From the NCBI GenBank assembly GCA_021325635.1, contig JAJPGV010000008.1:62001-126000 (forward strand): a DNA stretch of 64,000 nt. The letters run 5' to 3'. The notes under the pieces are model-generated. The model was not told the DNA's origin. It made no database searches and worked only from the letters and a program-made list of their open reading frames with translations. The position numbers and the translations under genes are program-made. This document shows positions 1,226 to 64,000 of this stretch, piece by piece. Each line of letters opens with the position of its first letter. Position 1 is the first letter of the stretch. The DNA comes from Chloroflexota bacterium (GTDB lineage: Bacteria; Chloroflexota; JAJPGV01).

Positions 1226-4200
1226 CTAGGGCAACAGGCCCGATAGCATCGCGGCTATCCTGGCCAACAGACCGCTGGCTGGGTTAGTCGAGCTCGACGA
1301 GCTCACGCTCGCCGGCCGCGTCGTCGCGGTCGTCACTGTTCCGCCACCAGCCGCATCCACGCTGCCCACCGTAGTGGTATGCGTGTTGTCGCCGATGTGG
1401 CCGGTGCTCGACGTGCTGCCGCTGACGCCATTCGCGGTACCCAGATCGGTGATGGTGGCCGTCCCGGTGCTGGTCGACACCGCGGACGATATGCCACCCC
1501 TCTTCGCTCCACCGGTCGTGACGGTCGGTGCCCCGCCGCCCGTTACGTCAACCGAGGCATCGACACCGCCCACCGTGACGTCTCCGGACATTGCACTGGC
1601 CACGGCTGCATCGACAGCGTGCTCGACCTGATCGTTGAATGACTTGGTGTTCGAGCCAGGCCCTGTGCCGGCGTTGCCGCCGCCCGCGCCATCAACGAAA
1701 TCGATCTCGCCGGTCGTGGTGTTGTTGCCGTTCATACCCACGGCGGTAGCCGATCCGCTGGTGCCGCTGGCCGTGCCGGTATTGGAGACGTTGGTGGTGT
1801 TGGAAGTGTTGATGGTGGCCCCGGCATTAGCACCCGCGGTTGCCGAGCCGGTGGCGCCACCGGTCGTCGCGGAGGGAGCGCCCGGGTTCATCACGTTGGT
1901 GATGGCCAACCCGATTCCGTCACCCTTCACGTCGCCGCTCTGGGCCTCAGCCACGTCACCCTCGCGGCTGTCGATCTTCTGGCGGTTATGGACTTCCGTG
2001 TCTCCGCCACTGCCGGAAGCGTTCCCGCCGCCGGCCGCATCGACAGCCATCACGAGACCACTCGTGGTGTTGTTCCCGGTCTGGCCGGTCGCCGCGGCGT
2101 TACCCGAGACGTTGGTTGCCATGCCGGTGTTGGTCACGCTGTTCGTATTGGTCTCGTTGAACGTCGCGCTGGAGTTGCCGCCCGCCTTAGCGCCGCCAGT
2201 GGTGAACGAGGTGCTGGCCTTGGAGCCGTTATCGATCGTCGTCCCAGCGAAGCCGATGCCGTCGCCCCACACGTTCCCACTCTCGGCGTCACCGAAGTCA
2301 GAGACATGAGACCTCACGGACTGGTGGTTGGTGGCTTCGGTTTCCCCACCGCCGCCCGAGTTCGATGGAGTGGCGCTGCCGCCGTTCCCACCGCCAGAGG
2401 CGTCAACTGCGTCGACTTCGCCGGTAGTGGTATTGGAGCCCGTCTGGCCCGTAGCCGTCGCCGATCCGCTGGTGTTGCTGACCGTGCCGTTGTTGGATAC
2501 CGTGTTGCGGTTCGTGACGTTCACCGTGGCTGCGCTGCTCGAGCCGGTCCCGTCGGAAGCGCCGGTCGTGGCCGAGATATTGCCGCCATTGCTGAGGGAC
2601 GTGATAGCCGCGCCGATGCCATCGCCGTGGGCCTTGCCGCTGCCGGCTATCGCCGCGTCACCGTTCGAAGAGCTGACGTACTGATGATTCTCGGCCTCAG
2701 TGTCACCACTGGAAGCCGAGGCCTCACCCGGCTCGCCCTCACTGGCCGTGGCCGCGCCTGTGTCGGCCAGTACGACCGGTGAAGTGCCAGTCGCGCTGCC
2801 GCTGTTGCCTCCGCCCGCCGCATCGACGTCGCCCACCAGCCCGCTGGTGGTGTTGTTGCCAGTTTGGCCTGTGGCCGAAGCGTTGCCGCTGGTATTTGTG
2901 GCGGTGCCGGTGTTGGACACGTTGTTGGTGTTGCTCACCGTCACCGTGCCGCTGGCATTGCCGCCCACCTTGCTGGCGCCGGTCGTGATGGAGATCGCGC
3001 CGGTGTTGTTGATGGTCGTCCCGGCGAAGCCGATACCGTCGCCATAGGCATTGCCTGTCTGCGCGTCGGCCGCGATGTCGTTGTGCGACTTGACCGTCTG
3101 GTGATTACGAGCCTCGGTGTCACCACTCGATGCGGAAGCCAGGCCGCCCGTGGCCGAGCCGCTGTTGGCCCCATCAGCCGCGTCAACCGCCACCACCGTT
3201 CCGGTCGTGGTGTTGTCGCCAGCCTGGCCGGTAGCCGTCGCCGCTCCGCTCGTGTTGGTGGCTGTGCCGGTGTTGGTGACGTTGTTGGTGTTGGTGCGCC
3301 GGGACGAAGCCGATGAGCCACTCGGCGAGCTGCCGATCGCTCCGCCACCACCGCCACCCGTGGACGACCCGGGGCCGCCAATCGAGCCGCTGGTTGTCGT
3401 GCTGGAGCCAATCGAGTTGCTGATGTTGGTCGTGGCATCACCGATGCCGTCACCGCTGGCAGACCCGGTTTCCGCGCCGGCAAAGATGTCGTTGTCGGAC
3501 TCCACCTTCTGGTGGTTGGAAGCTGTGGTCTCCCCGCTGAACGACTTCCCGACGCTGCCGATACCTTGCCCGAGTCCGGTCGCCGCCGTGGCGCTGCCAC
3601 TGTTCGCGCCGCCCGCTGCATCCACGGTCCCGACGGTGCCGCTCGTCGAATTGTTGCCCGTCTGGCCCACGGACGTCGCCGCCCCGGTCGTATTGGTCAC
3701 CATGCCCGTGTTGGTGACGTTGTTGACGTTGGTCCCGGAGCTGTTCTTGATCGTGGTGGACGCGAGACCAATGCCATCTCCGGACGCATTCCCGCTCATG
3801 GCGTCGGCCGAGATGTTGTTTTCGGACTCCACCGTCTGGCTGTTGTGAGCCTTGGTGTCGCCGCTGAACGACTTGCCGACGGTGCCCAGAGCCGAGCCCA
3901 CGCCGGTGGCCGTTGCCGAACCGCTGTTGGAGCCGCCGGCGGCATCCACCGTATTGACGTTGCCGCTGGTGCTGTTGTTGCCGGTCTGGCCAGTGGCAGT
4001 GGCCGCGCCGCTCATATTGGTAGCGGTGCCGGTATTGGTCACCGTGTTGGTTCCGGAGCCGGTGATGGTCGTGATCGAGGCGCCGATGCCATCGCCATGC
4101 GCGTTGCCGCTCTTGGCCGTGGCTTCGATGTTGTTGCTCGACGCGACCTCTTGCTCGTTGGAAGCCGAGGTGTCACCCCCGAACGCCTTGCCGACGCTGC

Positions 4201-7200
4201 CCAGGCCTGAGCTCACGCCCGTGGCCATGGCGCTGGCGCTGCCGCTGTTCGCGCCGCCTGCCGCGTCCACCGTGCCGACCGTGCCGCTGGTGGAGTTGTT
4301 GCCGACCTGGCCGGTAGCGCTCGCCGCACCAGTGGTGTTGGTGGCTGTGCCGGTGTTGCTGATGGTGCTGGTGTTGGTGGTCGTCGAGCTGGTGCTGCTG
4401 TTGCCACCGTTCTTGGCACCGCCGGTTATCTTGCTGCCGAAGCCGCTGCTGCTGATGCCGTTGACCACAGAGCCGATGCCGTCGCCGTGAGCGTTGCCGC
4501 TCATTGCATCTGCCGAGATGCTGTTCTCGGACGCTACGACCTGCTCGTTGCTGGCCTTGGTATCGCCGCCGAACGCTTCAGCATCGGCGCTGGCCGTACC
4601 GGAGGTGCTGGCCGAAGCCGTGGCGCTGGCCGAGCCGCTGTTCGATCCACCGGCCGCGTCCACCGTGCCGACAGTCCCCACCGTGGTGTTGCTGCCGTTC
4701 TGGCCCACCGAGGTGGCGGCGCCGGTAGTGTTCGAAACCGTGCCATTGGCGGTGAGGCGGTTGGTGTTGGTGATGGTGCCGCGGATGCTGCTGTTGCCAC
4801 CGGTGTCCGCGGCGCCGGTGGTCATGCTGCCGCCGCCACCGTTGGTGATGCTGTTGGCCACCGAAGCAATGCCGTCGCCGCTGGCCGTGCCCGTCTCCGC
4901 GCCGGCGAAGATGCCGTTCTCGGAAGCGACGATCTGCTCGTTCTCCGCGGTGGTGTCGCCCCCGTTCCCAGACCCGTTGGCTTCGGCCGACGGATTGCTT
5001 CTCTCGCCCGCGGTAGCCGTTGCCGTGGCTGTGCCGCTGCCGGAGTTGGCGCCGCCGGCGGCGTCGACGTCCGTGACCACGCCTGAGGTGCTGTTGCTGC
5101 CGGTCTGGCCGGTTGCCGTAGCGTTGCCACTGGCATTCGTGGCCGACCCAGTGGCCGATACCGTGTTGTTATTGGTGAGCGTGGCCGTGCCCGAAGAGTT
5201 GCCGCCGTTCTTTGCGCCGCCGGTGGTGATGGACGGCAGGACACCGTTGCTGATGATCGTGTCGCTGCTGCCAATCCCATCGCCGTAGGCGTTGCCGCTG
5301 CTGGCGTCGGCGACGATCTTGTTCTCGGAGGCCACCGTCTGGCTGTTCTCCGCCGTCGTGGCGCCGCTGGAGCCGTTCCCCGACGCGGAAGCGTGTGGCG
5401 ACGAGGAGGGACCGGCGGAAGCCGTGGCGGTTGCTGTGCCGCTGCCGGAGTTAGACCCGCCGGCTGCGTCCACCGTGGTAACGACGCCCGAGGTGGTGTT
5501 GTTGCCCACCTGGCCCATCGCGGTGGCACTACCGCTGGTGTTGATCGCGGTGCCGCGATTGGTGATCGAGTTGGTGTTGCTCTCGGTTTCCGTGGCGCTG
5601 CTGTTTCCGCCGGTGTCCGCGCCGCCCGTGGTTACGTTCCCGGCCTTGCCTGTGGCGTTACTGATCTCGGCGCCGGCAAACGAGATGCCGTCGCCGTGGG
5701 CGGTGCCCGTATCGGCGATGGCGCCGTCGCCATTGAAGGACGCGACGACCTGCTCGTTGGCCGCCGTCGTGTCGCCACTGAAGGCCGCGGCCTCAGCCGA
5801 AGCGTTGGTGCCGGTTGAGGTCTGAGTAGCGCTGCCCGAGTTCGCGCCGCCCGCGGCGTCGATGTCGGTGACTGTGCCGGTGGTGCTGTTGCTGCCCACC
5901 TGGCCCGTAGCCGTGGCGTTGCCGCTGGTGTTGGTCGCGGTGCCCGTGTTGGTGATGGTGTTGGTGTTGGTCAGGCTGACCGTGGCCGACGAGTTGCCGC
6001 CGTGCTTTGCGCCGCCGGTGGTGATGGAGCCAAAGGCGCCGCTGCTGATGGCCGTATCGCTGCTGCCGATGCCATCCCCGTGGGCGTTGCCCGTCTCCAC
6101 GTCGCCGAAGTCACTGGTAACGCCGGCAACCGTCTGCGCATTCACCGCCGTCGTGTCACCGCTGGAGGCCGACGAGCCACTGCCGGAGTTGGACCCGCCG
6201 GCTGCGTCAACAGTGCCCACCGTGCCGCTGACGCTGTTGCTGCCCGTCTGACCCACGGCGGTGCCATTGCCGCTGCGATTGGTCACCGTGCCGGTGTTGC
6301 TGATGGTGTTGGTGTTGGTCTCGGTGATGGTGACACCGGAGTTCCCGCCGCTCTTGGCGCCGCCTGTCGTGACCTTACCCGAGGCGCCGGCCGCGGTGAT
6401 CTCGGTGTCGGCCGAGCTGATGCCGTCGCCCCAAACGTTGCCGGTGCGCGCTTCGGCCGAGTCTCCCACGACGCCCGCGACCTCCTGCTCGTTGACCGCC
6501 GTGGTGTCGCCGCTCGCGGCCTCCGAGTTCGTGCCGGTGGCGTTGCCCGAATTCGCTCCGCCCGCGGCGTCAACCGTGCCAACCGTGCCGCTGACGGTAT
6601 TGTCGCCGGTTTGGCCGGCCGCGCCGCCGGTTTGGCCGGTAGCGGAGGCATTGCCGCTGACGTTGGTCGCCCGGCCGGTGTTCGTGATCGTGGTGCCGTT
6701 CGTCTGGGTCAGCGTGACGGCCGAGGTTCCTCCGCTGTCCGCGCCACCCGTCGTGAACATGGCCGGAGCGCCGCTCATGATCATCGTGCCGGCAAATCCG
6801 ATGCCGTCGCCGTGGGCGTCACCGGACCGTGCCTGGGCCGTGTCCTGAACGACCTGGCTAACCAGCTGCTCGTTCACGGCGGTCGTATCGCCGCTTGTAG
6901 CCTCGGATCCGGAGCCGCTGGCGCTGCCCGAGTTCGAGCCGCCCGCGGCATCCACCGTGCCGACCGTTCCGGTGGTCGAGTTGCTGCCCACCTGGCCGGT
7001 GGCCGTGGCCGATCCGGAGGTGTTCGTCGCCGTCCCGCTGTTGGTGATGGTGTTGGTGTTGTTGATGGTCTCGCTGACGCCCGAATTTCCGCCGGTCTTG
7101 GCCCCGCCGGTCGTGGCATCTCCCGCGCCGCCGTTGGTGATCTCGGCGTCGGCGGTGAGGCCGCTGCCGCTGGCGTTACCGCTTCGGGCGGAGGCGTTGT

Positions 7201-8185
7201 TGCCGACGTCTAACACCACCTCCTGGCTGTTAGCCGCGGTGGTGTTACCCGACCCGGTATGGCTGCCGGAACCTGAAGCGGAGCCCGAATTCGCGCCACC
7301 CGCGGCATCCACCGTCGTCGTGCGACCCGTGGCCGAGTTGTTACCCACCTGCCCGGTGGCGGTGGCCGACCCGGTCGTAGACGTCGACGTGCCGGTGTTG
7401 CTGATCGTGTTCGCGTTCGTGACCGACTGCGTCACACCAGAGGTGCCGCCGGTCTTGGCTCCGCCCGACGTGCTCGAGCCCGCCCCACCGTTGCTGATGC
7501 TGGTGATGGCTGTCGTGCCGTTGGCGCTGGCATTGCCAGTCGTCGCCGAGGCCGAATTGTTCACCGAGCTGACGACGGATTGGTTATTGGTCGCCGTGGT
7601 GCTGCCGCTGGGGCTGGAGCCGCTGGCAGCGCCACCGGCCGCGTCGACCGAGCCAACGGTAGCGGTGGTGCTGTTATTGCCGGTCTGCCCCGTGGACGTG
7701 GCGTTGCCGCTGCTGGCGCTCGCCGTCCCGGTGTTCGTTACCGTGGTGGTGTTCGTCGTGGTCTTCGTAGCACCACTGTTGCCACCGCTCGTCGCGCCGC
7801 CCGTGGTCGTGCTGCCGCCGCTGCCGTTGCTGACGGTTGTGCTGCTCGTCGTGCCGGTGGACTTCACGCTCCCACTCGAGCTCGACGCCGTCGAGCTCGA
7901 GCTCGAGCTGGACGTGCTGGAATTCGAGGCCGTTGTTGAGCCGGTCGTGGCCGCCAGGGCCTGGCCGCCAACCAGCAGCGCCATGACGGTTGCCGAGGTG
8001 CCGGCGCGAAGCGGCAGATCGGCTTTCCGGCGGCGCTTGGCCGGATTCACGGTCGCCGGCTCTTGCGAACTTGGGTCCGTTTTCTTGGATCGAGCCACTT
8101 TTTGGTTCTCCTTCATCTGATCCGTTTGCTGCTTGTTCTTCTCTGGGCTGCTGGAAAACAGCTGGCTTGATGTGGTCACTAACAA
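1226..8185 (-). CDS. Giant secreted Gly/Ser/Thr/Asn repeat protein (about 2,300 aa)
   Basis: An exported low-complexity protein of unknown function. The reading frame is open from a TTG at 8185. The ATG at 8116 is the more likely start, giving MKENQKVARSKK, a basic stretch (KRRRK) and then a hydrophobic signal segment (ATVMALLVGGQALAA). A Ser/Thr/Gly linker follows, then about 18 imperfect units of roughly 95-130 aa, each marked by a VDAAGG core. Each unit contains several shorter rungs such as SGNATATGQTGNN, SGDTTAVNEQ, SGNAHGDGIG and TTGGAKxGGNSS. There are almost no Cys residues. The C-terminus (LLARIAAMLSGLLP) is hydrophobic, with no basic tail and no LPxTG. The gene lies directly downstream of a paralog (8204-11380) and is probably cotranscribed with it. 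The regular Gly/Asn turns and alternating small residues suggest a beta-solenoid or fibre; this is inference. Confidence 0.8.
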   Translation of the reverse strand: MLVTTSSQLFSSSPEKNKQQTDQMKENQKVARSKKTDPSSQEPATVNPAKRRRKADLPLRAGTSATVMALLVGGQALAATTGSTTASNSSTSSSSSSSTASSSSGSVKSTGTTSSTTVSNGSGGSTTTGGATSGGNSGATKTTTNTTTVTNTGTASASSGNATSTGQTGNNSTTATVGSVDAAGGAASGSSPSGSTTATNNQSVVSSVNNSASATTGNASANGTTAITSISNGGAGSSTSGGAKTGGTSGVTQSVTNANTISNTGTSTSTTGSATATGQVGNNSATGRTTTVDAAGGANSGSASGSGSHTGSGNTTAANSQEVVLDVGNNASARSGNASGSGLTADAEITNGGAGDATTGGAKTGGNSGVSETINNTNTITNSGTATNTSGSATATGQVGSNSTTGTVGTVDAAGGSNSGSASGSGSEATSGDTTAVNEQLVSQVVQDTAQARSGDAHGDGIGFAGTMIMSGAPAMFTTGGADSGGTSAVTLTQTNGTTITNTGRATNVSGNASATGQTGGAAGQTGDNTVSGTVGTVDAAGGANSGNATGTNSEAASGDTTAVNEQEVAGVVGDSAEARTGNVWGDGISSADTEITAAGASGKVTTGGAKSGGNSGVTITETNTNTISNTGTVTNRSGNGTAVGQTGSNSVSGTVGTVDAAGGSNSGSGSSASSGDTTAVNAQTVAGVTSDFGDVETGNAHGDGIGSSDTAISSGAFGSITTGGAKHGGNSSATVSLTNTNTITNTGTATNTSGNATATGQVGSNSTTGTVTDIDAAGGANSGSATQTSTGTNASAEAAAFSGDTTAANEQVVASFNGDGAIADTGTAHGDGISFAGAEISNATGKAGNVTTGGADTGGNSSATETESNTNSITNRGTAINTSGSATAMGQVGNNTTSGVVTTVDAAGGSNSGSGTATATASAGPSSSPHASASGNGSSGATTAENSQTVASENKIVADASSGNAYGDGIGSSDTIISNGVLPSITTGGAKNGGNSSGTATLTNNNTVSATGSATNASGNATATGQTGSNSTSGVVTDVDAAGGANSGSGTATATATAGERSNPSAEANGSGNGGDTTAENEQIVASENGIFAGAETGTASGDGIASVANSITNGGGGSMTTGAADTGGNSSIRGTITNTNRLTANGTVSNTTGAATSVGQNGSNTTVGTVGTVDAAGGSNSGSASATASASTSGTASADAEAFGGDTKASNEQVVASENSISADAMSGNAHGDGIGSVVNGISSSGFGSKITGGAKNGGNSSTSSTTTNTSTISNTGTATNTTGAASATGQVGNNSTSGTVGTVDAAGGANSGSASAMATGVSSGLGSVGKAFGGDTSASNEQEVASSNNIEATAKSGNAHGDGIGASITTITGSGTNTVTNTGTATNMSGAATATGQTGNNSTSGNVNTVDAAGGSNSGSATATGVGSALGTVGKSFSGDTKAHNSQTVESENNISADAMSGNASGDGIGLASTTIKNSSGTNVNNVTNTGMVTNTTGAATSVGQTGNNSTSGTVGTVDAAGGANSGSATAATGLGQGIGSVGKSFSGETTASNHQKVESDNDIFAGAETGSASGDGIGDATTNISNSIGSSTTTSGSIGGPGSSTGGGGGGAIGSSPSGSSASSRRTNTNNVTNTGTATNTSGAATATGQAGDNTTTGTVVAVDAADGANSGSATGGLASASSGDTEARNHQTVKSHNDIAADAQTGNAYGDGIGFAGTTINNTGAISITTGASKVGGNASGTVTVSNTNNVSNTGTATNTSGNASATGQTGNNTTSGLVGDVDAAGGGNSGSATGTSPVVLADTGAATASEGEPGEASASSGDTEAENHQYVSSSNGDAAIAGSGKAHGDGIGAAITSLSNGGNISATTGASDGTGSSSAATVNVTNRNTVSNNGTVSNTSGSATATGQTGSNTTTGEVDAVDASGGGNGGSATPSNSGGGGETEATNHQSVRSHVSDFGDAESGNVWGDGIGFAGTTIDNGSKASTSFTTGGAKAGGNSSATFNETNTNSVTNTGMATNVSGNAAATGQTGNNTTSGLVMAVDAAGGGNASGSGGDTEVHNRQKIDSREGDVAEAQSGDVKGDGIGLAITNVMNPGAPSATTGGATGSATAGANAGATINTSNTTNVSNTGTASGTSGSATAVGMNGNNTTTGEIDFVDGAGGGNAGTGPGSNTKSFNDQVEHAVDAAVASAMSGDVTVGGVDASVDVTGGGAPTVTTGGAKRGGISSAVSTSTGTATITDLGTANGVSGSTSSTGHIGDNTHTTTVGSVDAAGGGTVTTATTRPASVSSSSSTNPASGLLARIAAMLSGLLP
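1330..7960 (-). repeat. About 18 tandem protein-coding repeats within the giant gene
   Basis: The minus strand encodes about 18 diverged copies of a unit of roughly 290-400 bp, recognised by the VDAAGG core and the preceding (S/T)GQ(T/V)G(N/S)N motif. Spacing varies because Ser/Gly/Ala linkers between units differ in length. The copies have diverged by substitution rather than being identical, so the array looks old and selected, not recently amplified. The array leaves long open frames on the opposite strand, which are artefacts of its codon composition. Confidence 0.85.
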
Positions 8186-14386: not shown

Positions 14387-15445
14387 TTAACCCATCTTGC
14401 TCAGCGCATCGGTGGCCAGAGAGCGCAGTTTCTCGTCCCGGACCAGCTGCGCGGCGTTCTGGAGATCGCTCTTGCTGGCGTCGCGATACATCAGCCCGCG
14501 ATAGAGCAATGCGGGGCCGAACTGGGGATCGATCTGCAGGGCTTTGTCTTCTGCCGACATCGCATCCTGGCTCTTGCCCTGGTTCACCAAACCAATGCCC
14601 AGGTTGGTGTAGGCAGCCGGATCTGAGCCGTCGAGCTCAACCGCCTTTTGGTCGTCCTGCAGGGCCTTATCGTAGGCCTTTTGCGACGAGAAGAGCACGC
14701 TGCGGTTGACGTACGTGGGCTCGTAGTTGCCGTCGAGCGAAATCGCCTTGTCGAAATCCTTCATGGCATTGCCCGGATCGGTCCCCTGCATCAGCGTGCC
14801 GCGCTGGACGTAGGCCGAGACGAATTCCGGCTTGAGGGTGATCGCCTTGCTGTAGTCGGCCTGGGCGGCTTTGCCATCCTCCCCGCCATAGGCCGCGCGC
14901 AGGAAGTAGGCTGCCGCGTTGTTAGGATCCTTCTTGACGGCGTCGTCCAGCATGGCCGAAAGGTTGAGCTGCTGCGCCGGCTCGACCGTTAGGTCCACCT
15001 TTGCCGGGCCATTCTTGCGCTGAACGTCCAGGCTCACCTTGTCGCCCACTTTGAGCTTGCGGATCTCGCGGTTGGCCACGTTGGCGTTGGTGACGTTCGT
15101 CCCGTTCATGGCTGCGACGACGTCGCCCACCGCAAGCCCAGCTTTTGCCGCGGGCTGGTTCGGCATGACCAGCACGGCCACCATACCTGGCTTCGCAGCG
15201 CTGCCGATGACTTTCTGCCAGCCGCTGTTGTTGACCTCGAGGACCATGCCCAGCTGGCCCCCTCCTTGGCTGGCAGCCGATGCGCTGGCCGATGGAGACG
15301 ACGACTGGCTGGGTGCCGCCGCCGCGCTGCCACCAGCGCCGGACGGAGGCGCGCTGGCCGTGCCCCCGCAAGCCGCGACGCCGGCTGCCAGAGCGAGGGT
15401 GAGACCGCTGAGACGCAAGAACCTGGGATGAACGTTGATGGTCAT
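14387..15445 (-). CDS. PDZ-TPR lipoprotein
   Basis: A membrane-anchored lipoprotein of 352 aa, probably an extracytoplasmic scaffold. ATG 15445 follows AGGAG by 8 bases. The signal sequence ends in a lipobox (LAAGVAAC). A Ser/Ala/Pro linker leads to a PDZ domain at about 65-165, recognisable from GMVLEV, the ligand groove region, and AGLAVGDVVAAMNGTNV. From about 175 to 340 there are tetratricopeptide repeats (for example AYFLRAAYGGEDGKAAQADY, PTYVNRSVLFSSQKAYDKAL, AYTNLGIGLVNQGKSQDA). There is no protease domain. PDZ plus TPR implies binding of protein C-termini or assembly of other surface components, which fits its place upstream of the protease and repeat-protein genes. The specific partner is unknown. 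Confidence 0.85.
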   Translation of the reverse strand: MTINVHPRFLRLSGLTLALAAGVAACGGTASAPPSGAGGSAAAAPSQSSSPSASASAASQGGGQLGMVLEVNNSGWQKVIGSAAKPGMVAVLVMPNQPAAKAGLAVGDVVAAMNGTNVTNANVANREIRKLKVGDKVSLDVQRKNGPAKVDLTVEPAQQLNLSAMLDDAVKKDPNNAAAYFLRAAYGGEDGKAAQADYSKAITLKPEFVSAYVQRGTLMQGTDPGNAMKDFDKAISLDGNYEPTYVNRSVLFSSQKAYDKALQDDQKAVELDGSDPAAYTNLGIGLVNQGKSQDAMSAEDKALQIDPQFGPALLYRGLMYRDASKSDLQNAAQLVRDEKLRSLATDALSKMG

Positions 15446-22023: not shown

Positions 22024-24621
22024 TTGAATACCGCACGCACCATCGGGAGGGCGGTCACGATCGCCGCGCTCCTGTCGCTCATAAGCTCCCCCGCCCTGGC
22101 TGACGGTTCCGCCAGCCCTGCTGCTTCGGCGCCCAGCTCCGGCTCGTCGATGGCAAGCTCGCCGCCGGCAGCCAGCTCTGCCGGCCCATCTTCCAGCGCT
22201 TCCGGCACATCCACCTCCACCGGCACTGCTGGCTCTTCGAGCTCGACCAACCCAGCATCCTCCACCGGCGCTAGCAGCGCGTCGAGCAGCTCGCCGGCGC
22301 CGTCGGGCCCGACCTCATCCTCGCCCGCTCAACCCGCGGCGACAACGGCGGAACCCGTCGTATCGGTCAGCTCGATGCCTCCACCGCCGCCATCACCGGG
22401 CCCCTCGGCCGCCGCGAGCGCGAGCCCGTCTGGTTCGTCCACGGTCGCTCCCTCAAGCGCTGCGCCTGCCGCCAGCGCAACGGCGATGGCCACTGCCGCT
22501 GGGAGCCCGGCGCCGTCGGGCAGCCCGGTGGCCAGTGCCTCGGCCTCGCCGGCGCCCACTATGAGCCCGTCCGCGGCAGGCGGGGCTAACGCGTCGGCAA
22601 CGCCGATCTCGAGCGCCAGTCCAGCCGTCTCGGCCAGCCCCTCACCCGTGCCGACCGTGTCCGTGCAGAGCTCTTCGAGCGCGCAGACAGGCAGCGCGAG
22701 CGCGGTCGGCGTCATCTCCACCTCGGCCGTGGCGTCGCAGCAAAGCGTGACCATCACCCAGGGAACGGGATCCAGCGGCAACAGCGTAAATGTGGCCCTC
22801 GCCGTAAACGTCAACAATCAGGGCTCGGCCACGGCAGGCTCCGGCACCGCCGCGGCGGCCGGCCAGACGGGCAGCAACACCTTTACCGCCATCGTCAGCT
22901 CCAGCGCCACCGCGGTGTCCTCGACCAGCGCTTCACCAGCCGGCAGTGGCACCCCCGCCACGTCCGGCGCCATCCCATCGACCTCGCCTGCTGCCAGCTC
23001 GACGGTGCTGGCCAGCCCGACGGCAGCAGCAAGCCCCAGCGCCGCGCCCTCGCCCGCGGCCACGCCCCCTGCCGGCGTCCTCATCAGCGCGTCCAACAAC
23101 GCCACGGCGGCCTCAGGCTCAGCGCAGGCAATCGGCGTCATCGCGGATACGCACGTCATCGGGGATCAGGCGGTGGTTATCCACATCCCCGCCAACACCT
23201 CCAATCAAAGCGCACAGATCACGCTGAGCGCCACGCTCACCAACACCGGCATCGCTCTGAGCCAGACGGGCAACGTCGCGGCGACCGGCCTGCAGGGCAG
23301 CATCTCGCTGGCCGCGGGCGCAGCACCCAACGGGCCCGCGGCGGCGACAGCCGCGGCCTCGATGCCGTCTGGCACCAGCGTCGATCTGCGCGATACGAAC
23401 TACGCGCTGGCTTCCTCCGGTGACGCTATGGCCATCGGGGTGAAGTCCACGACCGTGGTGCAGGGCCTCCAGCGCGTCACAGTGATCATTGACGACAACA
23501 GCTCCGGCAACCGTATCCAGGTGGTCTTCCTGGTTACCGTGGACAATGAGGGCAGCGCGTCGGCGCTCTCCGGCGGCGCGAGCGCCACTGGCCAGAAGGG
23601 CAACCTGCAGATCGGACTCCCCGGCGCGGGCGGCGCCGGAGTGAGCGGATCCGTTCTGAGCAGCGGCACAAGTGTTTCGGGCGCCGCGTCCGCCATCGGC
23701 GTCGATGCCACCACTTTTGTGAACGCCGTTCAGCTCATCGACGTCGAAGTGGGCAACGGCAGCTCGAACAACCAGGTGGACGCCCAATTCCTCGTCAACG
23801 TCACGAACCACGGAACAGCGCAGGCTTACTCCGGCGCTGCCAACGCCGCCGGGCTGGCGGGCAACGTTTCGGCCGGGGCGCCGGCGGGTCCTTCGCTGAC
23901 CTGGAGCGCTGCCCAGGGCTCGGTGCGCATCACCAACACCGCCAACGGTAAGTCCGGCAACGCGGACAGTCGCGGGCTGCAGGCCACCTCCAACCTCGAT
24001 GAGAACCAGAATGTCGACACCAAGCTGCTCGCTGGGCCCAGTCTCAGCATCAGCCAGTCCGACCGCGTCGTGAACTTGGGATTGGCCAGAAGCGTTACCG
24101 GGGACGTCGTGGTGGTGGCCCAGCTCATCCCCCCGCCACAGCCCCCCGCCGACCAGCCGTCCGGCGAAGGCAGTTCCCCCGCTCCCGCCTCACACGCCGC
24201 ACAGACCTATGCCAGCCTGCCCATCATCGCGGTGCCCACAGGCACAGCGAGCAGCAGCGCTGGCGATTCGCCTTCGTCCGGGGCAGTAGCTGGAGCCAGC
24301 GTAGCTGACCCCGAACCGGCAGCTGATGGCCAGGCCCAAACGGGCAGGGAGCCCCCGGCGCGAGCAGTGAGATCGGCCGGCCCCCAGGTCCCTACGCCTG
24401 CCTCCGGACAGACAGGGAACAGCGCGCCAGCCCCGGCCCAGGCCGCGCAACCTTGGCTGGACTGGTTCTTGCTAGCGCCAACGCACACCAGTGCAGGTGA
24501 CGCCCCGGGCTCGGTGGCCGCACAACAGCCCCAGCAGCCCGGGGGCCGGATGGGGTGGTTGGCAGGAGCACTGCCGGCAATAGCCGGCCTGCTCTGGTGG
24601 GGCGCCCGACGGCGGGCGTGA
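22024..24621 (+). CDS. Third secreted repeat protein, Ser/Ala/Pro-rich (865 aa)
   Basis: An exported protein sharing the rung motif of the two repeat proteins at 1.2-11.4 kb. The TTG at 22024 is chosen because GGAGG sits 7 bases upstream, although the frame is open to 21961. The signal peptide follows directly (AVTIAALLSLISSPALA). Residues about 30-230 are a Ser/Ala/Pro/Thr stalk. From about 250 come rungs such as GSATAGSGTAAAAGQTGSN, SGSAQAIGV, QTGNVAATGLQGS, SGDAMAIGV, SGGASATGQKGN and SGAANAAGLAGN, alternating with V/I-rich strands (VTVIIDDNSSGN, IQVVFLVTVDN). The C-terminus has a hydrophobic segment (LAGALPAIAGLLWWG) and an ARRRA tail, the arrangement of a wall- or membrane-anchored protein. 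No LPxTG is present. A kinase gene follows after 38 bases. Confidence 0.8.
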   Translation: MNTARTIGRAVTIAALLSLISSPALADGSASPAASAPSSGSSMASSPPAASSAGPSSSASGTSTSTGTAGSSSSTNPASSTGASSASSSSPAPSGPTSSSPAQPAATTAEPVVSVSSMPPPPPSPGPSAAASASPSGSSTVAPSSAAPAASATAMATAAGSPAPSGSPVASASASPAPTMSPSAAGGANASATPISSASPAVSASPSPVPTVSVQSSSSAQTGSASAVGVISTSAVASQQSVTITQGTGSSGNSVNVALAVNVNNQGSATAGSGTAAAAGQTGSNTFTAIVSSSATAVSSTSASPAGSGTPATSGAIPSTSPAASSTVLASPTAAASPSAAPSPAATPPAGVLISASNNATAASGSAQAIGVIADTHVIGDQAVVIHIPANTSNQSAQITLSATLTNTGIALSQTGNVAATGLQGSISLAAGAAPNGPAAATAAASMPSGTSVDLRDTNYALASSGDAMAIGVKSTTVVQGLQRVTVIIDDNSSGNRIQVVFLVTVDNEGSASALSGGASATGQKGNLQIGLPGAGGAGVSGSVLSSGTSVSGAASAIGVDATTFVNAVQLIDVEVGNGSSNNQVDAQFLVNVTNHGTAQAYSGAANAAGLAGNVSAGAPAGPSLTWSAAQGSVRITNTANGKSGNADSRGLQATSNLDENQNVDTKLLAGPSLSISQSDRVVNLGLARSVTGDVVVVAQLIPPPQPPADQPSGEGSSPAPASHAAQTYASLPIIAVPTGTASSSAGDSPSSGAVAGASVADPEPAADGQAQTGREPPARAVRSAGPQVPTPASGQTGNSAPAPAQAAQPWLDWFLLAPTHTSAGDAPGSVAAQQPQQPGGRMGWLAGALPAIAGLLWWGARRRA

Positions 24622-24659
24622 TTGGGGCTAGGGGGAGATGATGGAGCCGAGAGGCGGAA

Positions 24660-25853
24660 TTGGCGGCAACGATGTCTTGGGAGACCCGCGCTAGCGGACG
24701 AGCCACGGCGGCGCGTGCCATCAACCAATTGCGGGCTTCGCGCGCCCGCTTCGTCAGCGCCCTCGAAGCGCGCGAGCAAGGCCTAGCGCCGCATTTCGGC
24801 GGCGACCGGACGCTGAGACAGGTCATCGCGGCGCTGCAGGAGGCAGCGCCTGCCCAGCTAGCGGTCATCCTCTCCGAGGAAGCCGAGGGCTACGTCCGGG
24901 CCCTGGCCCAGGACGACCACGGCCGTACAACGAGCACGACGGTGCACAGCCCGGATCTCGTCGCCGAAGCGCACGTTGGGCTGCCGTTCAAACGCACCCG
25001 GTTTCTGGCCGGCGCCATGGCCGAGAAGCTGTCGCAGGAGCTTGGGTTATCCCCCTGCAACCTGTTCTGCTTCCGCCCCATCAGCGTCGAGGATCACTTC
25101 AGTGGCCTGCTGGGTCTGGGCGTGAACCAGGGGCCGGATAGTAACCGCGCTTTTCCGCTCCACGTCTCGGCGCTGGTCATGCTGCGCCTCATAGAGGGCG
25201 AGGTCACACGTTTTCTGCGCCACACGCGATCGCTGGAGCAAACCTACAGAGCAGGAGCGCGCCAGGAGCGCATCCACCTGGGCATGGATCTGCATGACAC
25301 CGTGCTCCAGGACCTCTCATACCTGCGCTTGCAGGCCGAAAGCATACGCCGTGGTCTGGAACCGGGCAGCGCCGTGGAGGGCCGCCTGCACAAAATGTCC
25401 GACGACCTCGGTCGCGTTGGCCGAGAGCTTCGTCAGTTAGCCGTCGCGCTCACTGAAACCGAGCGAACGGGTGACCTCGTCGTGGATGTCAACGAGATGA
25501 TCGAACGGTACCGTGGGCGCATCCAGGCGGAGATCCAGATCCGCATTGCAGGACGTCCCAGGCGGCTCGGCACGCCCATCGAAGCCAACCTGCTGCGGAT
25601 GCTGCAAGAGGCGCTGAACAACGTCTGGAAACACGCGGAAGCGCGCAAGGTGCTCGTCAGCCTGGAATACTTCGATGACCGGGTCATGCTGATGGTCAAG
25701 GATGACGGCCTGGGCTTCGACATCAACGCGCCGCGACCCACCGGCATAGGCCTCACCAGCATGCAGCACCGGGCTGTCGAGCTAGGCGGCGCCATGAACA
25801 TCACCAGCGCTCCCGGCAAAGGCACGTGCGTGTCAATAGAGGTACCGACCTAA
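24660..25853 (+). CDS. Cytoplasmic NarL-class sensor histidine kinase
   Basis: A 397-aa two-component kinase with no membrane segment. Residues about 45-185 look like a GAF-type sensor domain. The HisKA_3 dimerisation domain has the H-box GMDLHDTVLQDLSYL with phospho-accepting H212. The ATPase domain (about 300-397) has the N-box EALNNVWKHA, the G1-box KDDGLGFD and the G2 region TGIGLTSMQHRA. TTG 24660 has GAGAGG upstream; ATG 24672 in the same frame is the alternative. The likely partners are the two convergent NarL/FixJ regulators downstream (25884-26537 and 26852-27532). Its close position after the repeat-protein gene suggests it controls surface-protein expression. Confidence 0.88.
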   Translation: MAATMSWETRASGRATAARAINQLRASRARFVSALEAREQGLAPHFGGDRTLRQVIAALQEAAPAQLAVILSEEAEGYVRALAQDDHGRTTSTTVHSPDLVAEAHVGLPFKRTRFLAGAMAEKLSQELGLSPCNLFCFRPISVEDHFSGLLGLGVNQGPDSNRAFPLHVSALVMLRLIEGEVTRFLRHTRSLEQTYRAGARQERIHLGMDLHDTVLQDLSYLRLQAESIRRGLEPGSAVEGRLHKMSDDLGRVGRELRQLAVALTETERTGDLVVDVNEMIERYRGRIQAEIQIRIAGRPRRLGTPIEANLLRMLQEALNNVWKHAEARKVLVSLEYFDDRVMLMVKDDGLGFDINAPRPTGIGLTSMQHRAVELGGAMNITSAPGKGTCVSIEVPT

Positions 25854-25883
25854 CAAGCCAGCCAACCATATCTCGCACTTGGT

Positions 25884-26537
25884 TTAAACGCGAATTATGC
25901 CCTTCTTTATGGCATACACAATCGCTTGTGCACGGTCATAAATGCACAGCTTGTTATAAATGCTAGTAATGTGATTTCCCACAGTTCGCTCACTGATGCA
26001 CAGCTCATTGGCAATCTCGCGATTGCGTTTGCCTAGAGCCATGAGGCGCAGCACGGCTAGCTCGCGGCTGCTCAGCGGCGTGGAGCCATTTCCGTGCAGC
26101 TCCTTCTTCCCGTTCATGGATCCCGCCACGCGGTCCATGACCCGCTTGGCAATCAACGGAGGCAGGTAGGCCTTTCCCTCGGCAGCGTGCTGGATGGCCT
26201 CGACCATGCTCTGCGAGCTGTCATCTTTGACGATGTAGCCGCTCACGCCAGCCTCAATCGCGTCGAAAATATTCTGCTCGTCGTCGGTTGCCGAGATGAT
26301 GACCACACCGGTTTTCGGAAGCTTGGCTTTGATTTCCCGGGCGGCTTCGATGCCGTTCATCCCCGGCATGCTAATGTCGATCACCACCACGTCAGGTTTC
26401 TGGCTCAAGGCCTTGTCCACGGCTTCGCCGCCCTCACGGGCTTCGCCTACTACTTCGAAATCCTTAGTCAGGACCTCGCGTAATCCTCGGCGGAACAGTT
26501 CGTGATCGTCTGCAATTAACACCCTGTTTGCAATCAT
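25884..26537 (-). CDS. NarL/FixJ response regulator (receiver plus LuxR HTH)
   Basis: A 217-aa DNA-binding regulator. The receiver domain (1-120) has the acidic pocket ADDHE, phospho-acceptor D54 (VVVIDISMPGMNG), a Ser in VVIISATDD and the Lys in YIVKDD. The LuxR-type helix-turn-helix (about 150-215) has SSRELAVLRLMALGKRNREI and SERTVGNHITSIYNKL. It is a close paralog of 26852-27532, and both probably receive phosphate from the kinase at 24660, which is convergent with this gene. The start at 26537 gives the canonical N-terminus MIANRVLIADD. Confidence 0.92.
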   Translation of the reverse strand: MIANRVLIADDHELFRRGLREVLTKDFEVVGEAREGGEAVDKALSQKPDVVVIDISMPGMNGIEAAREIKAKLPKTGVVIISATDDEQNIFDAIEAGVSGYIVKDDSSQSMVEAIQHAAEGKAYLPPLIAKRVMDRVAGSMNGKKELHGNGSTPLSSRELAVLRLMALGKRNREIANELCISERTVGNHITSIYNKLCIYDRAQAIVYAIKKGIIRV

Positions 26538-26851
26538 AGAAAACCTGCACTTACTTTCCTACTCGAAGTTGCTGATTCATCGCACTTCTGGCAGTTTAAA
26601 CGGAAACGCCTCGGTCTGCACTTCACTAAGGGCCCCAATTGTTGGGACCTTTTGGCAACATTTAATTGCCTCTTTTACCTACTCGCGGACCCCTCGCAAG
26701 CCTTGAGCCAGAGTATGTGAAAATGCCTGCCGCGCCAAGCGGCCAGCTCACCGACCAGCCCACGACCTCATAGGGTGGATGTGCGCGGCACCTTACCCCG
26801 CCTGTCTGGCGTGGGCTCCTGAGAGGAGGCTGCTGTCAGGCAGGGCGCGGG
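26538..26851. other. Intergenic region between the two NarL-type regulators
   Basis: I see no gene. The part at 26560-26700 is AT-richer than the surrounding sequence and should contain the promoter of the regulator at 25884. A short inverted repeat CCCAA-TTG-TTGGG (26634-26646) could be a regulator site, but is too short to assert. Confidence 0.3.
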
Positions 26852-27532
26852 CTAAACGTTGATGATGCCGTTGCGGACCGCGTACATGATTGCCTGTGCG
26901 CGGTCCTTGATACGCAGCTTCTGGTAAATGTTCACGATGTGATTGCCGACCGTGCGCTCGCTGATGCCGAGTGCGGTCGCGATCTCGCGGTTCCGCTTGC
27001 CGAGGGCCAGCAGTCGTAAGACGCTGATCTCGCGCTCGGTCAGCGGCGACTCTCCGGGATGCCCCGCACGGCCCGACCGGCCCGCACCCATGGGATTGGC
27101 TACCCGCTCCATCAACCGCTTGGTGATGCTCGGCGGAAGGTACGCTCGTCCCTCGGACGCATTCCTCACCGCGGCCACGAGGGCCTCGGGCTCATCGTCC
27201 TTCACCAGAAAGCCATTCGCGCCGGCTTCGATCGAATCAAAGATCTCAGGATCGTTGTCCAAGGCGCTGATCATCACGATGCCCGTATCGGGCAATTGCT
27301 GCTTGATCTTGCGCGTAGCCTGGATGCCGCTCATGTGCGGCATCCGCACATCCATCACGATGACGTCAGGGCGTACTTCGAGCGCCTTTTCGACAGCCTC
27401 ATCTCCAGCAGACGCCTCGCTGACGACCTGCATCTCTTCCTCGCTGTCAAGGAGCTCTCGCAAGCCCATGCGGTACACCGAGTGGTCATCAGCGACCAAG
27501 ACTCTCACGCGCCGGCCTGGTTTCACGCCCAC
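26852..27532 (-). CDS. NarL/FixJ response regulator, paralog of 25884
   Basis: A 226-aa regulator starting at a GTG (27532). The receiver has VADDHSVYR, phospho-acceptor D61 (VIVMDVRMPHMSG) and the conserved Lys in FLVKDDEP. A Gly/Arg-rich linker (MGAGRSGRAGHPG) leads to the LuxR HTH (LTEREISVLRLLALGKRNRE, SERTVGNHIVNIYQKL), which is nearly the same as in the neighbouring regulator. A tandem duplication is the simplest explanation. Two regulators with near-identical recognition helices should bind similar sites. It lies divergent from the sortase gene. Confidence 0.92.
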   Translation of the reverse strand: MGVKPGRRVRVLVADDHSVYRMGLRELLDSEEEMQVVSEASAGDEAVEKALEVRPDVIVMDVRMPHMSGIQATRKIKQQLPDTGIVMISALDNDPEIFDSIEAGANGFLVKDDEPEALVAAVRNASEGRAYLPPSITKRLMERVANPMGAGRSGRAGHPGESPLTEREISVLRLLALGKRNREIATALGISERTVGNHIVNIYQKLRIKDRAQAIMYAVRNGIINV

Positions 27533-27724
27533 ATGCTAGTTGTCTTTTCTCGCGCCTGGAATGTGCATATCCCTTATCTTCCCGTTCACAAATGTCACTC
27601 CTTCGCTGCGTGGTTCGGCGCTTCCACCACTATTTCTAACGGCGTAGAGTGACGGCTGGGATCATGACGCGGCTGCCTACGTTGCCCAGAGCAGCGGGCC
27701 TTAACGCCCGGTTACTTTACTAGG

Positions 27725-28327
27725 ATGCGCACTCCCCTCTTAGCCGCACTGGGCGTTTTGAGCCTGGCCGGCTTTGTCTTCGGCCTGCTGTGGGATGGCG
27801 GTCGCGTCACGGTCCACTTCTACCTGCCGAACTGGGGACCGGTGGTGGCCATAGACCAGGCTTTGTCCCACCAGGACACTCGATCGCCCGTGGCCACCGG
27901 CATGCGCCTGACGATCCCCACGATCGCCGTCGACGCCGTCCTCGAAGACCTACCCGTGGACGCCGACGGCCAATTGCAGACACCCAGCCGCTGGGAAGAC
28001 GCCGGCTGGTATGACAGTGGCCCACGGCCGGGACAGGGGGGAATCGCAGTGGTGGTCGGGCACGTCGACTCCCATACCGGGCCAGCCATATTCTTTCGGC
28101 TTCACGAGCTCAAGGCCGGCGACCCCATCACCGTGAATGAGCCGGATGGGACCTTCGACTTCCGTGTGGCCAGCCTGGCCTCCTACTCGGAGAGCGCTAT
28201 CCCAATGGACCAGATATTCGTCTCCCGCGGACCCAGCAAGCTGGCCCTGCTCACCTGCGCCGGCGACTTCAACCCCTTGACTGGGCGCTACAACGATCGC
28301 CTGGTCGTCATGGCCTCCCGCGCATAA
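27725..28327 (+). CDS. Sortase (class E/F-like transpeptidase)
   Basis: A 200-aa membrane-bound cysteine transpeptidase that links surface proteins to the cell wall or to each other. The N-terminal signal anchor is residues 4-23 (PLLAALGVLSLAGFVFGLLW). The catalytic core has H113 (VVGHVDSHTGPA), C178 (ALLTCAGDF) and R188/R192 (GRYNDRLVV). The TLxTC-type motif and C-terminal RYxxR fit single-anchor sortases of Actinobacteria and Chloroflexi. No canonical LPxTG substrate is in the window, but three repeat proteins with hydrophobic or basic C-termini lie nearby and are the obvious candidates. ATG 27725 is preceded only by a weak AGG. Confidence 0.9.
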   Translation: MRTPLLAALGVLSLAGFVFGLLWDGGRVTVHFYLPNWGPVVAIDQALSHQDTRSPVATGMRLTIPTIAVDAVLEDLPVDADGQLQTPSRWEDAGWYDSGPRPGQGGIAVVVGHVDSHTGPAIFFRLHELKAGDPITVNEPDGTFDFRVASLASYSESAIPMDQIFVSRGPSKLALLTCAGDFNPLTGRYNDRLVVMASRA

Positions 28328-28368
28328 GTCGCGGGCCGCTCAGCCTGACGGCCGCCGCCTCGTCCGCC

Positions 28369-28911
28369 CTAGCAGCCGCTGGTCGCGACGCCGGGACTGC
28401 TGCTCGAGGCGCTGTTCTCGGTAATCACCGTGGTTCCGCCGTCCGAGCTGACGATCGTGGTGGAGCTGTTGAGCCCCGTGGCTGAGACGCTGCCACTGGA
28501 GGCATAGGCCGAGCAGTTGACGGTCGAGCTGACGGACGTGCTCGATGACGATGACGCCGAGCCACCGTCGGCCTCCCAAGAAAAGCGATCTACGTTAAGC
28601 CGCTGCTGGATGCCGAACGGACCGTTGATCCAGGTCTGATATCCGTCGGTGAAGGCAGTCCAATTGTCGGCCTTACGCCAGACCAGCAGACCTCCGGTGG
28701 TGTGCTGATTGGAATCACCCCGGGCGTTGTAGAACTCATCGTCGAGGCATGAGCCCACCCGGCCGGGCAGCGCATCATGCAGCAGCTTGAAGCCAAGCTG
28801 GAAGCCGCATTGTGAAGCCGCGGCCTGAGTCGATGCCGCGCTCGGCGCGAGCAGCATCGCAGCCAGGGCCAGCGGCCCAACCAAGCGCCGGCCAAATCGA
28901 GACGTGTGCAT
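28369..28911 (-). CDS. Small secreted protein with repeat-family C-terminal rung
   Basis: A 180-aa exported protein. ATG 28911 gives a signal peptide (LVGPLALAAMLLAPSAASTQA); the frame is open far upstream, but that part has no coding character. The mature N-terminal domain (about 34-115: GFKLLHDALPGRVGSCLDDE, TTGGLLVWRKADNWTAFTDG, INGPFGIQQRLN) matches, from memory, an uncharacterised domain recurring in secreted Chloroflexi and actinobacterial proteins. The Ser-rich C-terminus contains one rung of the repeat-protein type (ASSGSVSATGLNSSTTIV) and ends in Cys. The gene converges on the sortase with a 41-base gap. Function unknown. Confidence 0.72.
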   Translation of the reverse strand: MHTSRFGRRLVGPLALAAMLLAPSAASTQAAASQCGFQLGFKLLHDALPGRVGSCLDDEFYNARGDSNQHTTGGLLVWRKADNWTAFTDGYQTWINGPFGIQQRLNVDRFSWEADGGSASSSSSTSVSSTVNCSAYASSGSVSATGLNSSTTIVSSDGGTTVITENSASSSSPGVATSGC

Positions 28912-29188: not shown

Positions 29189-29596
29189 GTGCCCACCAAC
29201 GAACGTGATACTCCCAAGGCGCCTATAGCCGGCCACCTCGTCCTGGTCGTCGACGACGACGAGGCCATCGGCGAGCTCATTGCCATGGCCCTGGTCCAAA
29301 CCGGGATATGGGTATCCGTGGCCCACAGCGGACGCGACGCTCTGGAGCGAGCGCGCCAGCACAGGCCCGATCTCGTGGTCCTCGATCTGTCTTTGCCCGA
29401 CGCTACCGGTGAGGCCATTGCCAACAGCCTGCGACGCCGCTGCGGCCCAATGCCGATCGTGCTGGTCTCGGCCCAAGATCGCCCTTCAGTCGCCCGGGCT
29501 GCCGACGCCGTCCACGCCGAACGTTTCTTCACCAAGCCGTTCGACGTCGACGCCCTGGAAAACGCCGTGTCGCAGGTTCTCGCTACCTGCTCTTGA
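29189..29596 (+). CDS. Single-domain CheY-like receiver protein
   Basis: A 135-aa stand-alone receiver. It has the acidic cluster VVDDDEAIGE, phospho-acceptor D66 (LVVLDLSLPDATG), the Ser switch residue in IVLVSAQD and the Lys in FFTKPFD. There is no output domain, so it acts by phosphotransfer or by binding a partner. GTG 29189 has GAGG upstream. No chemotaxis genes are nearby; the adjacent MotB-like gene is on the other strand. Confidence 0.88.
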   Translation: MPTNERDTPKAPIAGHLVLVVDDDEAIGELIAMALVQTGIWVSVAHSGRDALERARQHRPDLVVLDLSLPDATGEAIANSLRRRCGPMPIVLVSAQDRPSVARAADAVHAERFFTKPFDVDALENAVSQVLATCS

Positions 29597-29630
29597 CGGA
29601 AGCGCCTCGCGGCGCCAACGAGCGCGGCGC

Positions 29631-30434
29631 CTACCCGACAGCGGGGTTAGCGGGAGGTTGCGGCGAGTTGCCGCTAAGTGGGAGCGTGAACGGCACGAAG
29701 GGCACGTCCTCGAGCTGCTGGAACACAACCAGCAGGTCAACGCGCCGGTTGAGGGCACGGTTCTCAGCAGAAGTATTCGGCACTACCGGGTCGTATTGGC
29801 CTTTGCTCCACAGCGACAGTCTGTTCTCGGGCAGCTTGTCTCGATCCACCAACACCCGCAGCACCGAGTACGCCCGAGCCTGGCCCATTTGCCAGTTGCT
29901 GGTGAACGCCGAGTTGGTCGCAGCTGGGGGCAGGTCATCGGTATTGCCAATGATCTGGATCTGGTTGGGAAGGCTGTTCAGCGTATCACCCAGCCGCACC
30001 AGCAGGTCGACGCCGGCGGGTTTCAGCGCCGCGGTTCCCGATTGGAACAGGACGTCCGCCTTCAACCGGATGGTCACACCTTGCGCGGCCTGCACCACGG
30101 TGGCCGCGTCTCCTGCGCCGGACGCATTGATCGCACGCTGGAGCTGACTCGCCGCGGACACCTTTGCAGTCTCTACGGACGACAGCACGCGCTGCTGCGC
30201 GTTGCCGTAGGCGACCGACTCACTCAGCGAGGTGGCGTTGAGACCGGCCATGACGTTTTGACTGAACGCCTGATCCAGTGACCCTCGCAGATCCTGGAAG
30301 CGTTTGACGTCGATGATCGAAAAGGAGTACAGGATCACGAAGAAGACCATCAACAGCGTGATGAGGTCGGCATAGGTCAGCAGCCAGCGCTCGCTGCGGT
30401 CCTTTTCCGGGCGCGAGGTTGCCTTGACGGCCAT
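29631..30434 (-). CDS. MotB/OmpA-like peptidoglycan-binding membrane protein (orphan)
   Basis: A 267-aa protein with an N-terminal MotB plug and transmembrane segment (RWLLTYADLITLLMVFFVIL). The Asp in TYADL corresponds to the proton-carrying Asp of flagellar stators. The C-terminal OmpA domain (about 120-245) has the peptidoglycan-contact pattern IQIIGNTDD, ARAYSVLRVLVD and NRALNRRVDLLVV. Flagellar stators need MotA, and none is visible next to this gene or elsewhere in the window, nor is any other flagellar gene. It may serve another energised process or only tether to peptidoglycan. ATG 30434 is preceded by GAGG. Confidence 0.85.
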   Translation of the reverse strand: MAVKATSRPEKDRSERWLLTYADLITLLMVFFVILYSFSIIDVKRFQDLRGSLDQAFSQNVMAGLNATSLSESVAYGNAQQRVLSSVETAKVSAASQLQRAINASGAGDAATVVQAAQGVTIRLKADVLFQSGTAALKPAGVDLLVRLGDTLNSLPNQIQIIGNTDDLPPAATNSAFTSNWQMGQARAYSVLRVLVDRDKLPENRLSLWSKGQYDPVVPNTSAENRALNRRVDLLVVFQQLEDVPFVPFTLPLSGNSPQPPANPAVG

Positions 30435-62795: not shown

Positions 62796-64000
62796 GATTC
62801 AGGCCCTCATCGCGGGGATGGTAAGTACGGGTTGGCCATGGCGGCCTTTTTTCGAGCTCTCGCAGATGCTCCCGCTATTTCAGTCCCCTCGTCGCGGGGA
62901 CGGAGAGTGCGGTATACAGCAGATCGTCGGCTTTTACGACTCGATCCCCGACAGTTTCAGTCCCCTCATGGCGGGGACGGTGAGTGCGGGCCATGACTAC
63001 TACATCCGCGTAACCAAGCCCAAGCGCGGTTTCAGTCCCCTCATGGCGGGGACGGTGAGTGCGGGCGGCGGCGTACCAGGCGGCGGCCCTGGCGGCGTCC
63101 CTGGGTTTCAGTCCCCTCATGGCGGGGACGGTGAGTGCGGGTCCAGAGCAGGTTCCCATTCACAAGCACATTCCGATTGCCGTTTCAGTCCCCTTATGGC
63201 GGGGACGGTGAGTGCGGGATAGGATTAGAAATCCCTGCCGTCTTCATCGTGCTTCCGTCAGTTTCAGTCCCCTCATGGCGGGGACGGTGAGTGCGGGTCG
63301 AGCTCATGATGAGCGGGCTCACGAAGACTTCGTTGTAGTTTCAGTCCCCTCATGGCGGGGACGGTGAGTGCGGGTAGAGCCTCGCTCGGCGCAGGACGGC
63401 GACGGCCATATCTGTTTCAGTCCCCTCATGGCGGGGACGGTGAGTGCGGGAGCTGCGTATCAAGCTCTGCCGCCAGCAGCCCTTGGGTCGTTTCAGTCCC
63501 CTCATGGCGGGGACGGTGAGTGCGGGCAGTGATCGCCTGCTGCACGACGCCCATGCCGAGCAATTGTTTCAGTCCCCTCATGGCGGGGACGGTGAGTGCG
63601 GGAGGGCAGGCGCTCTGAGGGCATTCGCGGTTGACGCTGAGGGTTTCAGTCCCCTCATGGCGGGGACGGTGAGTGCGGGAGGCGGTGATCGCTGTCCGCG
63701 GTGTTCTTCAGGATCGTGTTTCAGTCCCCTCATGGCGGGGACGGTGAGTGCGGGCCGGGCTTGACCTGCCGACTCTGGCCCTGTCGTTCCGGCGCTGTTT
63801 CAGTCCCCTCATGGCGGGGACGGTGAGTGCGGGGCAAGCCTGACGCGGTAGCGCAATACGTGATGGACATGTGTTTCAGTCCCCTCATGGCGGGGACGGT
63901 GAGTGCGGGGGCATACAGCGCGCTCGGCGCACCATACCCGAAGGAGTTGTTTCAGTCCCCTCATGGCGGGGACGGTGAGTGCGGGCAGCGTGTTCGGGGC
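62796..64000 (-). CRISPR. CRISPR array: 15 repeats plus one decayed copy, continuing past the right edge
   Basis: The repeat is 37 bases; on the plus strand it begins GTTTCAGTCCCCTCATGG and ends GGGGACGGTGAGTGCGGG. Full copies start at 62954, 63029, 63105, 63182, 63261, 63338, 63414, 63490, 63566, 63643, 63718, 63797, 63873 and 63949, with 38-42-base spacers. The copy at 63182 has one change. A variant copy lies at 62877 and a strongly decayed one at 62796-62831. Decay on the left implies the leader and newest spacers lie to the right, outside the window, so transcription should be on the minus strand. There the repeat ends in ACTGAAAC, a typical 8-base crRNA handle, and contains a GTCCCC/GGGGAC stem. 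No cas genes are in the window. Confidence 0.97.

Follow-up and report, generated by a model that had tools for sequence, protein, structure and literature searches.

The gene block and the question it raises

Does the sortase encoded between positions 22024 and 28911 of the window (the whole stretch of 64,000 nucleotides analysed here) serve the large repeat protein P0001 encoded in the same block? An earlier note on this DNA had answered in the affirmative, proposing a matrix which is assembled or anchored by the sortase under two-component control. The gene order given there for the block is borne out by the coordinates of all genes. The same applies to the identities of the kinase, the two NarL-type regulators and the sortase, for which Pfam returns HisKA_3 plus HATPase, REC plus GerE (twice) and Sortase, respectively. 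Together with two further repeat proteins of the window, the genes are:

22024–24621, + strand: repeat protein P0001, 865 aa, TTG start
24660–25853, + strand: histidine kinase, NarL type, HisKA_3 and HATPase_c (Pfam)
25884–26537, − strand: NarL-type response regulator 1, REC and GerE (Pfam), canonical receiver
26852–27532, − strand: NarL-type response regulator 2, REC and GerE (Pfam), canonical receiver
27725–28327, + strand: class-F-like sortase, Sortase domain (Pfam), His, Cys and Arg motifs present
28372–28911, − strand: small secreted protein, N-terminal domain and C-terminal tail with one rung
1226–8185, − strand: repeat protein P0006, 2319 aa, repeat spacing about 110–130 residues
8204–11428, − strand: repeat protein P0007, 1074 aa, two-half unit as in P0006

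The kinase gene starts 38 bp past the end of the P0001 gene, both being located on the + strand, and the sortase gene is divergent from the regulator genes. A Pfam scan yields no match for the repeat proteins of the window or for the small secreted protein.

Repeat unit and architecture of P0001

The sequence rung reported to be common to P0001 and the proteins encoded at 1–11 kb recurs above chance when profile scores are compared with those of shuffled sequences. What can be aligned is not one short rung but a unit of about 80–100 residues composed of two rung-bearing halves. P0006 and P0007 are built of such units, and four units of P0001 align with eleven of P0006 and P0007, seven columns being invariant. 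Scored with a profile derived from the 1–11 kb proteins only, the best domain of P0001 reaches 21.4 bits compared to a maximum of 6.9 bits among 100 composition-preserving shuffles. Since P0001 outscores all 100 shuffles with its own units left out of the profile, the sharing of the unit with P0006 and P0007 is real, the relationship being a distant one. Within this genome, searches with the unit match only these three proteins and the tail of the small secreted protein.

P0001 consists of a predicted signal peptide, a Pro/Ser/Ala-rich stalk, the repeat core, a second stalk, a C-terminal hydrophobic segment and an RRR tail, two of these parts being positioned as follows:

22636–24168, + strand: repeat core of P0001, residues 205–715
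24541–24618, + strand: C-terminal anchor of P0001, GGRMGWLAGALPAIAGLLWWGARRRA, without LPxTG

The hydrophobic C-terminus with basic tail that had been ascribed to two of the repeat proteins is present in both P0001 and P0007; the stretch in P0001 is weak (mean Kyte-Doolittle value 1.30), that in P0007 is clearer (1.79) and is likewise followed by a basic tail. P0006 has no C-terminal membrane segment. As already pointed out in the earlier note, LPxTG is absent: no strict match occurs anywhere in P0001, P0006 or P0007, and within their last 150 residues there is neither a strict nor a loose match. According to the general definition (PMC13251363), what marks a sortase substrate is its pentapeptide. 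P0001 (weakly) and P0007 display the hydrophobic segment and the basic residues of such a substrate but not the pentapeptide.

A rare family of predicted Chloroflexota surface proteins

The survey set comprised 400 Chloroflexota genomes including the present one, none of the 399 others belonging to its class. Searching all 400 with the unit gave seven further positive genomes; the core profile detects eight others strongly (8 of 399) and one weakly. The strong members are encoded by open frames of about 1150–1380 residues, and seven relatives align with P0001 from end to end, i.e. over signal peptide, stalk, core, stalk and anchor. A core profile built from relatives only gives P0001 45.1 bits for its best domain, the maximum of 100 shuffles being 1.9 bits. 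P0001 is thus a member of a rare family, not named before, of large, beta-rich proteins which are predicted to be membrane-anchored at the cell surface and whose hosts include soil, groundwater and other Chloroflexota MAGs (among them Centralia_MAG_593 and NC_groundwater_1084). A scan of genome contigs recovered six family loci, all of them in genomes already in this group. Neither Pfam nor NCBIfam provides a family for the few members scanned, which were the repeat proteins of the window and two relatives. The aligned members possess a C-terminal membrane segment and no sorting signal. Strict LPxT[GA], which P0001, P0006 and P0007 lack, occurs in just one of seven relatives checked, as LPDTA at residue 181 of the L085 protein, inside its N-terminal stalk. 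The signal peptide, the Pro/Ser/Ala stalks, the repeat core, the membrane segment and the co-linear homologues support the prediction that P0001 is a surface repeat protein.

Gene neighbourhood of the family

Eight family loci (L081–L087 and L137) were compared, and parts of one gene set recur in all of them. The set comprises a Gly/Asn-rich secreted protein, a small secreted protein and an Ig-like/TPR protein, the TPR part of the latter being a Pfam call and the Ig-like part a reading from the sequence. The TPR protein gene adjoins the repeat gene, directly after it, in seven of the eight loci; the Gly/Asn-rich protein, in which a profile test reveals no repeat unit of the P0001 family, is present in most of the eight, and the small secreted protein of the set, with its conserved C-terminal part (FRLCG..., DGCADL...), in at least four.

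At P0001 itself, adjacent Gly/Asn-rich, small secreted and Ig/TPR partners are missing, and its 128 kb contig contains no profile match to the Gly/Asn-rich or the small secreted partner. The lack of close versions of the partners on this contig suggests that the P0001 gene represents a divergent branch which has its own neighbours. The TPR protein encoded at 14387–15445 was considered as the TPR partner and rejected, its similarity being only generic.

As in NarL-type two-component systems, a HisKA_3/HATPase kinase and REC/GerE regulators are present, here beside the P0001 gene. Among the five family loci whose upstream side is visible, three carry an atypical NarL regulator just upstream of the gene set. 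Counted by length, this amounts to three NarL regulators per 133 kb of repeat-protein loci versus none per 249 kb of sortase loci used as comparison. The receivers of these regulators have lost both the acidic pair and the phospho-acceptor (GG for DD, N for D), in contrast to the two canonical receivers of the window, to which they are not orthologous. The degenerate-receiver regulators are located at L081:2085–3071, L086:2157–2993 and L087:13810–14595. The two-component control postulated earlier is plausible for P0001 in view of the NarL regulators upstream in relatives, and the repeat protein and its NarL-type control may plausibly be seen as one functional unit.

The sortase and its likely substrates

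The window sortase clearly passes the Pfam Sortase cut-off (72.3 bits versus 26.6), and the catalytic motifs VGHVDS, TCAG and RYNDR can be read in its sequence. The class F model NF033748 of NCBIfam is by far the best model, the score of 135.3 bits staying below the cut-off of 166, so that the enzyme is referred to as class-F-like. Sortases were sought in every family genome except G160. The seven genomes searched in full (G240, G104, G328, G088, G144, G228 and G152) encode two to six sortases each, none of which shares a contig with the repeat gene; the contigs bearing that gene include two of 624 kb and 182 kb. No sortase was seen at any of the eight family loci. Conversely, 20 sortase neighbourhoods harbour no protein with the repeat core or the unit and none of the gene set.

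Part of these neighbourhoods hints at a different task. Flagellar genes occur in the flanks of five of the 20 sortase loci in relatives versus none of 12 comparison loci (213 kb). In the present genome, the sortase on contig C23 is also found near flagellar genes, the window sortase lies 1.3 kb from a MotB gene with a CheY-like protein nearby, and in G088 an LPNTG-containing beta-propeller protein is encoded between hook genes and sortase. A functional affiliation of the window sortase with motility genes, which would concern the sortase only and be compatible with the role for P0001 proposed below, is a possibility on which we would nonetheless not rely: three of the five flagellar-flanked loci come from a single family, support in the tree is poor and the window MotB gene is not adjoined by any other flagellar gene.

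Considerably less probable is the assumption that the repeat proteins carry a non-canonical signal through which the sortase anchors them covalently or polymerises them, with the kinase and the regulators controlling the entire block. It draws on the adjacency of the genes in this genome, on the resemblance of hydrophobic segment and basic tail to a sorting signal devoid of its pentapeptide, and on the rung-bearing small protein which adjoins the sortase 3.7 kb from P0001 and leaves some room for a common block. With a class-F-like sortase nearby and hydrophobic C-termini with a basic tail, the locus is reminiscent of the LPxTG proteins and class E–F sortases of Actinobacteria (PMC13251363), from which it differs in that the repeat proteins are devoid of a C-terminal pentapeptide and in that the gene set elsewhere comes without a sortase. 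No pentapeptide is found near the C-terminus of any of the repeat proteins, the repeat family is absent from the 20 sortase neighbourhoods, and the conserved synteny expected from the earlier proposal is not seen in the eight homologous loci, none of which shows a sortase. Moreover, proteins with canonical LPxTG are available as partners both in this genome and near the sortases of relatives. Two such proteins (LPATG..., LPNTG...) are encoded less than 1 kb from sortases in two relatives, and one of them passes the LPXTG anchor model of NCBIfam. In this genome, a cupredoxin (L192:9395–10507, contig C53 of G000) combines LPKTG with a hydrophobic segment and RRLRRR and is likely a real sortase substrate. 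With the recurrent gene set lacking a sortase and the repeat proteins lacking LPxTG, the postulated sortase-dependent assembly or anchoring of a matrix is not supported, and the window sortase is probably a bystander to the repeat-protein system.

The small secreted protein

The single terminal rung attributed to the small secreted protein is indeed present as one weak copy at its C-terminus. The tail scores 14.0 bits with the profile of the 1–11 kb proteins (shuffle maximum 5.9) and 10.7 bits with an independent profile (shuffle maximum 3.3), and with both the protein ranks highest among the 14 scorable copies of its N-terminal domain; the profile of the relatives gives 11.8 versus 3.1 for the next copy. 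This secreted domain of 80 residues (LGF..LHD..VG.CLD...GDA.QHTTGGLLVWRKADNWTAFTDGY.TWINGP.G...RLNT.RF.WE) is encoded in 18 copies across the genome (L025–L042), the one in the window being without a Pfam match, and looks to be fused to a glycosidase, a PQQ-type dehydrogenase, peptidases, a CAP domain and a cupredoxin. A rung tail is prominent solely in the window copy, and this small protein may accompany the repeat protein. The idea that it is a dedicated sortase partner was rejected, since its main domain recurs 18 times and several copies are fused to unrelated enzymes.

Proposed role of P0001

Taken as a whole, P0001 is in our opinion quite probably a membrane-anchored beta-repeat surface fibre to which the sortase is unrelated and whose expression is plausibly under NarL-type control. 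After export via Sec, P0001 would be fixed in the cell membrane through the hydrophobic segment and basic tail at its own C-terminus, and the Pro/Ser/Ala-rich stalk would carry the beta-rich units outward to form a rigid fibre or an adhesive layer. P0006 and P0007, which have the unit in common with P0001, would probably add to the same surface layer. Expression of P0001 could plausibly be set by the adjacent NarL-type kinase and regulators, and the window sortase would serve other substrates which bear LPxTG. The shared unit, the family, its recurrent gene set free of a sortase and the lack of LPxTG are direct results, whereas the location at the surface, the fibre shape, the adhesive role, the regulation and the independence from the sortase are inferred.

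A structure model of the P0001 core, of low overall confidence (pTM 0.46), shows the last three units as pairs of antiparallel strands of about 20 residues, with pLDDT values of about 55–79 in these units and mostly below 50 elsewhere; the model of the P0006 units (pLDDT 45) is too poor for use. Fold searches with the core model gave no significant match, the nearest being FapC with an E value of 0.39, and searches of the PDB by sequence with P0001, P0006, the sortase and the core profile gave no match.

FapC subunits are soluble and are secreted through a dedicated exporter to form fibres. An amyloid-like functional matrix built from the repeats, comparable to FapC or curli, appears improbable to us: repeated beta units rich in Gly, Ala, Ser and Asn, and the non-significant FapC match, would fit in so far as the FapC amyloid of Pseudomonas also consists of imperfect beta repeats with small residues, but the core has no significant fold match, the scanned members have no Pfam match to, for instance, the curlin repeat and no PDB sequence match that would place them in the curlin or Fap families, no sequence relation of FapC to the repeat proteins was found, and the integral anchor sets the repeat protein apart from soluble secreted subunits.

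The membrane-anchored fibre favoured here has its closest likeness in the fibrillar adhesins and giant surface repeat proteins of monoderms, which share signal peptide, low-complexity stalk, beta-rich repeats and a C-terminal membrane or wall anchor. It differs from them in that the scanned members of the P0001 family match no Pfam, NCBIfam or PDB sequence, in that the anchor of the family is free of LPxTG and in that secreted and TPR partners of its own accompany the family. Going further, we tentatively suggest, though with somewhat less than even confidence, that the family marks an undescribed surface-fibre system of Chloroflexota in which a giant membrane-anchored beta-repeat protein is combined with dedicated secreted and Ig/TPR partners and a NarL switch, whose phosphorylation residues are lost in relatives, and which operates free of sortase. 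A literature search turned up no paper on the P0001 repeat family and none on Chloroflexota flagellar sortases. The unclassified repeat protein and its recurrent gene set offer a handle on how uncultured members of the phylum may attach or form a matrix; at the same time, a probably wrong link between repeat protein and sortase is removed.

Further observations

Class-F-like sortases beside flagellar or motor genes were noted in the window (27725–28327 with 29189–30434) and at L089, L143 and L157–L160. One of the two other sortases of this genome is encoded between FliJ/SLT and FlgC/FliK, and the LPNTG beta-propeller protein, flanked by flagellar hook genes and sortase, is found at L160:4760–5902. 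The recurrence of sortases in flagellar clusters of Chloroflexota raises a testable question concerning wall anchoring and motility. At the end of the window, a CRISPR-like array extends from 63338 to 63988 with a period of 76 bases beginning GTTTCAGTCCCCTCATGGCGGGGACGGTGAGTGCGGG.
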